DNA of 64,000 bases from an uncultured Mycoplasmatota bacterium. Its GTDB lineage: Bacteria; Bacillota_I; Bacilli_A; Mycoplasmatales; Mycoplasmoidaceae. The translations under genes were made by a program, and so were the position numbers. Below the pieces are notes generated by a model, which saw nothing but the letters and a program-made list of their open reading frames with translations, ran no database searches and was not told the origin of the DNA. Below are positions 1 to 10,003 of the stretch, in pieces (position 1 is the stretch's first letter; each line of letters opens with the position of its first letter). The stretch lies in NCBI GenBank assembly GCA_949517355.1, contig CATDIL010000001.1, forward strand, positions 1 to 64,000. Direction: 5' to 3'.

Positions 1-118
1 CGCTGTTTTTTTCTTGAATAGAATAAACTATTCCACCTATGCCGACTGCAACTGTAGCCGTTATTCCACTACATAATGCAATTAAATTTAGTAATTTCTT
101 ATTTAACTTCTTGTTCAT
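1..118 (-). CDS. Surface protein, N-terminal part (runs off window)
   Basis: Minus-strand gene starting at 118 and cut by the left window edge. The 39 visible codons encode a Lys/Asn-rich start (MNKKLNKK), a hydrophobic segment with CSG near residue 16, then a Gly/Val/Ala-rich stretch up to SIQEKN. This is a signal peptide or N-terminal membrane anchor; the Cys could be a lipidation site but the lipobox (LIAL-C) is imperfect. From the CSG codons on, it is nearly identical at the DNA level to the truncated gene at 237-881, so the two are paralogues. That paralogue has BspA-like repeats, so this gene probably does too (inference). Its promoter carries a long A tract. Confidence 0.7.
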   Translation of the reverse strand, partial: MNKKLNKKLLNLIALCSGITATVAVGIGGIVYSIQEKNS

Positions 119-139: not shown

Positions 140-173
140 AATATACTCTCTTTTTTTTTTTTTTTTTTTGCAA
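140..173 (-). promoter_or_regulatory. Putative phase-variable promoter with A19 tract
   Basis: On the minus strand a possible -35 (TTGC plus the first A residues, from 173) is followed by 19 consecutive A (169-151), then GAGAG, then a -10-like TATATT (145-140). The start codon is at 118, so the leader would be about 15 nt. The homopolymer forms most of the -35/-10 spacer, which is about 22 nt as written, longer than the optimal 17. The arrangement matches the known vlp promoters of Mycoplasma hyorhinis, where A-tract length switches transcription. Switching here is inference. Confidence 0.55.
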
Positions 174-236: not shown

Positions 237-881
237 TTAATCTTCTGCTACTCGTCAACCAGATGGTAATCCAGAATTTTGTTTCAAATATGCAAGTAAT
301 GCTGCACTATTATGCGTATCATCTATTGGATTAGTTACAGTAACTGTTCCACCATCTTGACAAACGCCATTGAATGGAGTAGATTGAAAAATAATATTAC
401 CATTTCAAGCGTCTCATCTAATACTGCTTAAATTAAGACAATTATTAAAAGCTTCATAACCGATGGTTGTTAAACTGCTTGGAAAACTTACAGAAGTTAA
501 TGATGAACAACCATAAAAAGCACAATGATCAATTCAAGAACAATTAGAGTTTTCTTCAAAAGTTAATCTTGTAATAAATGATGGAATTGTTGAACTTGAG
601 TCATGATAATCATAAAAAGCATTAATACCAATACTTGTTAGACTTGCTGGAATTTGCATAGTGTTACAATCTTTAAAGTTGTCTTTATAAATAGGAGAAG
701 TCGAATCATTTAAAAAAGCATCTTGAAGACCTAATAACGTTTTACCATCTTCAGAAAATTCATAAACTTCTTCTGGTGAAACTTTTTGATCAACTGGTTC
801 ATCACCACCATTTTTTTCTTGTCTAAGTGAGTAAATTACTCCACCAGTGCCGACTGCAACTGTAGCTGTTATTCCACTACA
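237..881 (-). pseudogene. BspA-like leucine-rich-repeat surface protein lacking its 5' end
   Basis: An open frame of 214 residues without internal stops (UGA=Trp), ending in TAA at 239-237. It begins at the CSG codons shared with the gene at 1-118 and has the same Gly/Val-rich segment, then LRR_5/BspA-type repeats: IPASLTSIGINAFYD, LTFEENSNCSWIDHCAFYG, and SLTSVSFPSSLTTIGYEAFNN. BspA-type repeats are known from bacterial surface adhesins. No start codon precedes the CSG codons: the signal-peptide start is replaced by an (AT)9 run, and the ATG formed at the junction is followed at once by TAG. The frame stays open to 938 but has no ATG, GTG or TTG. A TATAAT (911-906) survives upstream. It is either a recent pseudogene or a silent donor copy that could recombine with the intact paralogue; an unusual AUU/AUA start cannot be excluded. 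Confidence 0.7.
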
Positions 882-898: not shown

Positions 899-964
899 TA
901 ATTAAATTATACTTTTTTTCAGCAAAGTTATATTTTGTTTAATAAATCACATCAAAATAAATAA

Positions 965-6320: not shown

Positions 6321-7172
6321 CTATGAATTAGGGTTGTTAGAAATTTGTAAATCTTTTATATATTTATAAATTGAAGTAGAAGGATAAGTCCCTAAAGATG
6401 GCAAATAATGACTATTTAACGTTTGAGTTTCACCATCTTTTGTTATTTGAATTGTTATAAATTCATTATTAGATTCTAAATCAACTAATAAAATTCCAAA
6501 ATGATATAAAATGCCATCACGATCTTCATGAAAAATACCTCCAAATTGTGAAAATCATATTTTCTTATTCGTAAAATTTACAATAGTTTCAACAGTGTGA
6601 TATTCATCTTCTTGGTAGTTTTTTGCAACAAGATTCATTTTTCAACTTCCACTAAAGCTAAATGTATCACGTCCATCGGCAGCTTTTTCTTCTAATTTAA
6701 GATTAGTTATTTGATCTATATGTAATGAAAAACTCTTTACATTATTATGTATATAATCAGCGAATGTCTCAACAGGTAACGGTTGATCTTTATAAATCAT
6801 ATTAAGTAATTTAAATAAACAATCTCCAAGTAATGTAAAAGCCAAAAAATCTTTAGTTTTTTCAATGTTTCCTGGTTTAAACATATCAGCTGTAACATTA
6901 TTCAAATATTGTATATATTCTGGATCTGTAAAACGAACTTCTCTATTACCGTTTGTATAATCAGTATTTGGATCAAAACAAAAAGTACCATAATTTACTG
7001 CATCAAAATTCAATAAGTCATCAATTGAATCAAAGTCATACAATGAATAATGCGCTTTTGATGAAGGGATAGTACTATTTGTCTTAATAGATGAAATAGC
7101 ACTGCATCCAGTAATGCATCCTAGTAAAATTGGAATGCTTAAAGTCATTACTTTAAATAATTTGTTATTCAT
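6321..7172 (-). CDS. Predicted lipoprotein of unknown function
   Basis: 283 aa with internal UGA Trp codons. Type II signal peptide: MNNKLFKVMTLSIPILLGCITGC, with two possible lipobox cysteines (LLGC and ITGC); the mature part starts SAISSIKTN. The remainder is soluble and mixed alpha/beta with no motif I recognise (contains YNSALY-like segments and an FGGIFHEDRDG stretch). It is anchored on the outer face of the membrane. It lies alone between rpsO and the rplT terminator, behind a T16 tract. An alternative in-frame start at 7232 would add a poly-Phe stretch encoded by that tract, but the signal peptide and the TATAAT at 7193 favour 7172. Confidence 0.8.
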
Positions 7173-7187
7173 AATTTTCTCATTTTT

Positions 7188-7227
7188 ATTATATATCGCT
7201 TTTTTTGAAACAAAAAAAAAAAAAAAA
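7188..7227 (-). promoter_or_regulatory. Lipoprotein promoter with T16 tract
   Basis: On the minus strand: sixteen T (7227-7212), then GTTTC, then TATAAT at 7193-7188, 15 nt before the ATG at 7172. The homopolymer ends at the place of the -35 box (TTTTTG at 7216-7211 gives a 17-nt spacer). Tract-length changes could alter promoter strength; this is inference. Confidence 0.5.
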
Positions 7228-8552: not shown

Positions 8553-9968
8553 TTACTGAGCAGCTTGTCATTTATCTGACAATCCACAATTTTCATGTAA
8601 ATAATCAATAAAGTCTTGATACCCTTGAGGATGACCATTCATAAAACGAATATAGTGAATTTGACCATCATCTACAATATTACGAAATGCTAATGTAGTT
8701 CACTCTGTATATACAGTTGGAATATCAGTAAATCATATTTCTTGAATTTTTGTTCCTAAAAAAGCATTATCATGAATAAATGCTATTGATGCAGGAAGAT
8801 AAATTTTAGAAATTTCAATATCAGCTAAACAGTTATCAATAGTTTTTAACTTTTCGCAATTTGAAAAATCATATTCTTCAAAAGGTTCTGGTGAAGTAGT
8901 TGAAGTTAAAGCGAATTTATCAATTTTAGTCAATTTAGAGTTTTTTTCAAATGAGAGTTTCTTGATAAAATTTCATTTTTCTGTTGTAAAAGATAAAGAA
9001 GCAGACGAGAAAGCACCATAAGGTAAAGTTGTAACAAAATCAGGAATTTCAATTTCGTTATATCCTTTGTTTCTAAGCTCAGTAATTTCCTCATCTGTTA
9101 GATCTTGTCTAACACCATTACATTTTGTTTTATCAAAAATATCTAAATAAGTTTCTGGTAGTATAGTTTCACTTCTAATTTTCAAGAAAAAACTAACTTT
9201 ATTTGAAGTTATAGTACCCAATTTAGCAGTTAACTTAATATTATGTTCACCAGGAGTTTTTGCTGTAGTTGTTGCATCTCAAGATAATTCATAAGCATTA
9301 CCGAATGGTTTAATATGTAATCAATCTGGAGCTATCTGATTGTCAAATTCTAATTCTCAATCGACAGACTGACTCGCTTGTCAAGGTAATACATTTGCAT
9401 TTATTGATGAATCTTCAAATTGTCCTTGTGAAAACGGATCAATTTCCACTTGTTTTAAACCAGTTTTAACATTGATTGAACTAGGCTCAGGTTGAGTAAA
9501 TGAGATGCTTAAACAATTATTAAGTCTACCATAATAAGAAGAATTTTCTGCTTCTATACGTATTTGATGTCTTGTTAATTCACTTGTTGTCACAGGTAAA
9601 TCAGAAGCATCACAAACAAGTCTTCCTAAATATTCATTAGCAGAATAATTTCTTTTCATTGATAATCAATTGATTTTTTGACCAGTAGAAGCATCGAAAA
9701 AACTTCATGTAAGACTTTCAATCTTAATTGGCTTTAAATTATTATCTTTAACAGAAAATAAATGAGTATATGGACCTATTACTTTATCCTCAGTTGTTTC
9801 GCCGGCCTTAAATGATAGTTGATAGAAATTACCTGTTAATGCGCTATTGTATGTTACTAATAACCCTTTTTCTTTTTTATTATTACAACTTGTTACAAAC
9901 GGAATTGAAGAAACGATTCCTAATCCACACGCAATACTTGTAATTACTTTTATTAACTTTTTATTCAT
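8553..9968 (-). CDS. BspA-like leucine-rich-repeat lipoprotein
   Basis: 471 aa surface lipoprotein. Signal peptide MNKKLIKVITSIACGLGIVS ending in the lipobox FVTSC (Cys 29), then NNKKEKG. The N-terminal 270 residues look beta-rich and resemble no family I know. The C-terminal part (about 290-420) has LRR_5/BspA-type repeats: IEIPDFVTTLPYGAFSS, LSFEKNSKLTKIDKFALTST, FSNCEKLKTIDNC, and IYLPASIAFIHDNAFLGT. Such repeats are known in adhesins that bind host matrix or other cells. Many UGA Trp codons. Starts upstream of 9968 (to 10019) lack a signal peptide, so 9968 was chosen. It has a TAAAAT -10-like box about 9 nt before the start, preceded by an A8 run. Confidence 0.82.
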
Positions 9969-10003
9969 ATGTAATAATTTTACTGTTTTTTTTAGAGAAT
10001 AGA

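Follow-up and report, generated by a model that had tools for sequence, protein, structure and literature searches.

Does a long run of a single base beside the start of a surface-protein gene act as a switch for that gene? The window analyzed here, a stretch of 64,000 nucleotides, opens contig C1 of a 636 kb genome in nine contigs (G000) that translates sensibly with genetic code 4. Positions 151–169 of its plus strand are a run of 19 T, or A19 on the minus strand. Such a run is expected 0.02 times per window by dinucleotide shuffling; across the 64 kb, A/T runs reach a length of 8 (12 runs of that length), and above that there are just two, of 16 and 19. The first-pass annotation had placed the A19 tract in the –35/–10 spacer of a gene starting at 118, and this placement was borne out. 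On the minus strand, the order is TTGC-A19-GAGAG-TATATT, with a spacer of 22 nt (17 A plus GAGAG) between TTGCAA (173–168) and TATATT (145–140), and 21 nt from the end of TATATT to the ATG at 118. The accompanying arithmetic, by which about 14 A would give a 17-nt spacer, was correct. The gene assigned to a start at 118 is truncated, however: the contig ends at base 1 of the window. A consensus promoter scan called no promoter at the A19 site, because the scan permits only spacers of 16–18 nt. Tract lengths here and below are assembly consensus calls, in which an error of one base or more is possible. The features of this region are:

1–118, minus strand: 5′ part of the putatively controlled gene (MNKKLNKKLLNLIALCSGITATVAVGIGGIVYSIQEKNS...), truncated where the contig ends
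140–145, minus strand: –10-like hexamer TATATT; a TATA element stands at the equivalent place in 48 of the 48 long-tract sites described below
146–150, minus strand: linker GAGAG, from tract to –10; other copies have GAG, GAAG, CGAG, CAG, etc.
151–169, minus strand: A19 homopolymer, the proposed length switch; paralogs have 14–22 at the same position
168–173, minus strand: –35-like hexamer TTGCAA, assigned from the sequence, its last two A shared with the tract
237–880, minus strand: second BspA-like gene, first ~20 codons missing, with an LRR_5 match in 237–659
881–898, no strand assigned: (AT)9 repeat, at the site of the second gene's missing start
906–926, minus strand: remnant promoter TTTGCTG-A7-G-TATAAT; the equivalent place holds A15 in genome G026 and A19 in G035

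With a contig end as the left edge of the window, no more than 39 codons of the gene at 118 can be read. The start of this gene is repeated with 100% identity on C5 and at the opposite end of C1, and with 92% on C2, and the C5 and C2 copies read on into BspA-type LRR proteins (PF13306, E = 2e-43 and 7e-42). The LRR_5 domain (PF13306) scored above its curated cut-off in the C2 and C5 paralogs and in window 237–659, while the gene at 118 ends after 39 codons; its LRR nature is thus probable by inheritance from near-identical paralogs, the closest long ones being BspA-type LRR surface proteins. The BspA-type family occupies many loci, and several contigs break inside it. Upstream of the 237–880 gene, on the opposite strand, lies clpB, and the G026 ortholog of that gene adjoins clpB with its start intact. 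A CIRCE-like inverted repeat (TTAGCACTTTAATGTAAAGAGTGCTAA) at 963–993 precedes clpB and is kept in the G026 and G035 alignments.

Runs of at least 15 A occur at nine places in G000, six of them in the equivalent position before BspA-like-type genes; C1:163122, the seventh such site, precedes another lipoprotein gene. Measured from the TTG-like hexamer, these seven sites are:

C1:169: A19, linker GAGAG, spacer 22 nt
C1:196554: A17, linker GAAG, spacer 18 nt
C5:1374: A17, linker GAG, spacer 17 nt
C2:1528: A16, linker GAG, spacer 17 nt
C7:211: A16, linker GAG, spacer 17 nt
C2:2911: A18, linker GAAG, spacer 19 nt
C1:163122: A16, linker GAG, spacer 17 nt

The long tracts before surface-protein genes of this genome thus differ among copies, from 16 to 19, and an A14 site lies upstream of a GT2 glycosyltransferase gene. 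The pattern A10-GA-N0-2-GTAT gave nine matches in G000 and its reversed control none. Short forms (A7–A10) precede other family members. At 9977–9997 (minus strand) of the window, a lipoprotein gene starting at 9968 (MNKKLIKVITSIACGLG...) has a short-class promoter, CTCT-A8-CAG-TAAAAT, and at 7188–7227 (minus strand) a T16 run lies directly upstream of the lipoprotein promoter GTTTC-A7-GCGATATATAAT of the gene at 6321–7172. A BspA-like lipoprotein gene on C2 with an A18 promoter (L018, 2842–2875, minus strand) has a first ATG whose frame stops after 8 codons, the remainder being in another frame.

The pattern A12-N1-5-GTATAA was present in 6 of 36 genomes of the genus, and its control in none. 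A ClpB tree groups these six as a single clade (support 100/99), with 87–99% identity to the window ClpB inside the clade and at most 74–75% outside it. In all, 48 long sites were found in these six species, each an unbroken tract of 14–22 A with a TTGC-like box on one side and a TATA box on the other; the reversed control pattern had no matches in the genomes searched. TTGCAA was the most frequent upstream hexamer (22 of 48). Spacers at the long sites were 17–25 nt, with none below 17 nt and eight at exactly 17 nt; in G035 most were 19–22 nt, centered at 20–21 nt. When the gap in TTGCAAA-N0-24-AGTATA was left free to be any sequence, gaps at the promoter position in the clade species were pure A, of either 6–10 or at least 16, with pure-A gaps of 11–13 absent, and other species had mixed-sequence gaps at control level. 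In the short class of related promoters (A6–A10), the TTGC cannot serve as –35 for that TATA. Tract lengths were bimodal in G000, G026, G029 and G032, at 6–10 and 14–22 with none at 11–13. No significant compensation between linker and tract length was found over the 48 long sites by permutation (P = 0.24 and 0.61).

Among the 38 long sites followed by an ORF of at least 100 aa, inspection found an export signal at the start of 36. Many of the long-site ORFs match LRR_5, and several are lipoproteins without a Pfam match. The remaining two of the 38 are a GT2 pair, and poly-A promoters were seen before GT2 membrane glycosyltransferase genes at L154 (789–2417, minus strand) and L145 (364–1983, plus strand). 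That a GT2 glycosyltransferase carries such a promoter suggests that a surface glycan is switchable as well.

The first-pass annotation had also described the homopolymer as one that mutates often, and tract length indeed proved to be the fastest-changing feature across paralogs and orthologs. At the C7:211 locus, the tract is A16 in G000 and A17 in G026, with flanks 98.5% and 95.4% identical, and at the GT2 locus it is A14 and A15 in the same two genomes, with flanks of 95–96% that are gapless outside the tract. A third ortholog pair from these genomes has A16 in both. The locus on the clpB side holds A7 in G000, where the gene is decayed, A15 in G026 and A19 in G035; that of the lipoprotein at 7172 has A7 in G000, A10 in G026 and A22 in G029.

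A sister species to the poly-A clade (G023) has the opposite base. Here, TTG(C/T)G-T(15-21)-GTTAAAAT or GTTATAAT precedes 16 paralogs with a different leader, several of them LRR_5 positive, so that tracts of T15–T21 lie between TTG(C/T)G and TAAAAT or TATAAT before BspA-like genes, with spacers of 16 to 22 nt and a mode of 17 nt. In G022, tracts of T15–T17 stand before GAAGTTATAAT or GAGATATATT-like sequence, some at LRR_5 genes, with a –35 that is not clear-cut. Since A is exchanged for T while place and length range are kept, it is length, rather than A-tract structure, that appears to be conserved. At five G022 loci (L250, L270, L281, L286 and L287), (CA)n repeats lie just 3′ of the poly-T promoters, reminiscent of the CA repeats of BspA genes in Ca. 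M. girerdii.

The likeness to vlp of Mycoplasma hyorhinis, which the first-pass annotation had drawn, is also upheld by these comparisons, in that an uninterrupted A or T tract flanked by a TTG box and a TATA box persists in paralogs and orthologs alike. A poly-A promoter tract in the M. hyorhinis vlp genes was reportedly described by Citti and Wise in 1995. A Vlp signal query gave one close match (94%), in the public genome G076, where the vlp-type locus has a similar upstream layout, TTTGC-A19-GACTGGGACAAT. The same query gave no match in G000, where the paralogs match LRR_5 instead, and membership in the Vlp family was rejected.

All vlp promoters have a poly-A tract (PMC10502178), tract indels are reported to turn vlp on and off (PMC10502178, PMC2268961), and indels between –35 and –10 likewise switch maa2 and vmm (PMC2268961). 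What the present loci share with vlp is a poly-A tract that each member of a lipoprotein family has in its promoter; they differ in that the proteins are unrelated (BspA-type LRR, GT2 and others), the loci lie scattered along the chromosome, the –10 (TATAAA or TATATT) directly follows the tract near the start codon, and switching is predicted. In vmm of M. mycoides and maa2 of M. arthritidis, –35/–10 spacer indels also alter transcription (PMC2268961, PMC10502178), but the vmm repeat is a dinucleotide and the proteins differ. Ca. Mycoplasma girerdii is another uncultured mycoplasma with a large BspA-like LRR family and length-variable repeats, seen in the reads of one population (PMC5476646), but its repeats are mostly dinucleotides that shift the reading frame, in contrast to the promoter homopolymers found here. 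The vpma promoter of M. agalactiae has poly-T directly upstream of its –10 (PMC2268961), as in G023, but there a single promoter serves a locus switched by Xer1 inversion, whereas the tracts described here are one per gene.

We consider it highly probable that these tracts mediate promoter phase variation by slipped-strand mispairing, working as in vlp on an unrelated protein family. The homopolymer lies between –35 and –10, the layout is shared by several members of a surface-protein family, and its pure tracts differ in length among copies and between close genomes; together with the vlp precedent, this argues for slippage and on/off control. The tract would be a slip-prone spacer inside a sigma-70-type promoter, in which replication adds or removes bases and thereby shifts the distance between TTGCAA and TATATT. 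RNA polymerase would bind well only near 17 nt, an optimum that we infer for this organism. Every surface gene with such a promoter would then switch on and off independently, giving mixed surface coats within one population.

A-tracts bend DNA, and the tract might instead be a fixed structural element, a bent or stiff spacer setting a constitutive strength, whose length drifts without any switching. The retention of tract and position in dozens of promoters would fit such a role, but length is the least conserved feature among near-identical orthologs, the sister species has T rather than A on the coding strand, and multi-copy surface-protein genes are the usual targets of phase variation, all of which makes this explanation unlikely. 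Roughly half as likely as that is a by-product of mutation: as the gene family spread, an AT-rich promoter cassette would have been copied along with it, its homopolymer slipping neutrally. The family is indeed duplicated and recombining, as seen from identical 5′ ends and from contig breaks within it, but uninterrupted tracts of 14–22 stand at one place in six species, the only runs above 8 in the window are the two tracts before surface-protein genes, and unrelated genes (the GT2 glycosyltransferase, lipoproteins without Pfam hits) have the tract too.

Short-read assemblies miscall homopolymers, and position 1 of the window is a contig end within a repeat family, both of which could point to an assembly artefact. 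The layout recurs in seven separate genomes, however, including uniquely flanked loci distant from contig ends, which limits the doubt to exact lengths and makes an artefact very improbable.

Under slipped-strand switching, the 22-nt spacer of the copy at 118, as assembled, predicts that this copy is OFF or weak, and the copies at C2:1528, C5:1374, C7:211 and C1:163122, with their 17-nt spacers, are predicted to be ON. The spacers in G035, mostly 19–22 nt, count against this reading and would mean either that most copies there are off or that 17 nt is not the optimum. The non-significant linker–tract compensation also speaks against it, as does the short class of promoters, whose TTGC and TATA cannot pair as –35 and –10. 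More tentatively, and with the balance somewhat against it, homopolymer-spacer promoters might be a switch cassette of general use in this genus, dispersed at up to ~18 sites per genome and controlling unrelated surface functions, from BspA-like proteins and further lipoproteins to a GT2 glycan synthase, with the base being A in one clade and T in its sister and in a third lineage. Such a base exchange would show that selection keeps spacer length and not A-tract chemistry.

The system would thus be another case of the known vlp-type promoter-spacer switch, in an uncultured mycoplasma lineage. Its 48 poly-A and 16 poly-T loci provide replicates for relating spacer length to promoter activity and, if the switching is real, promoters that flip independently could give this lineage a very large number of surface coats.
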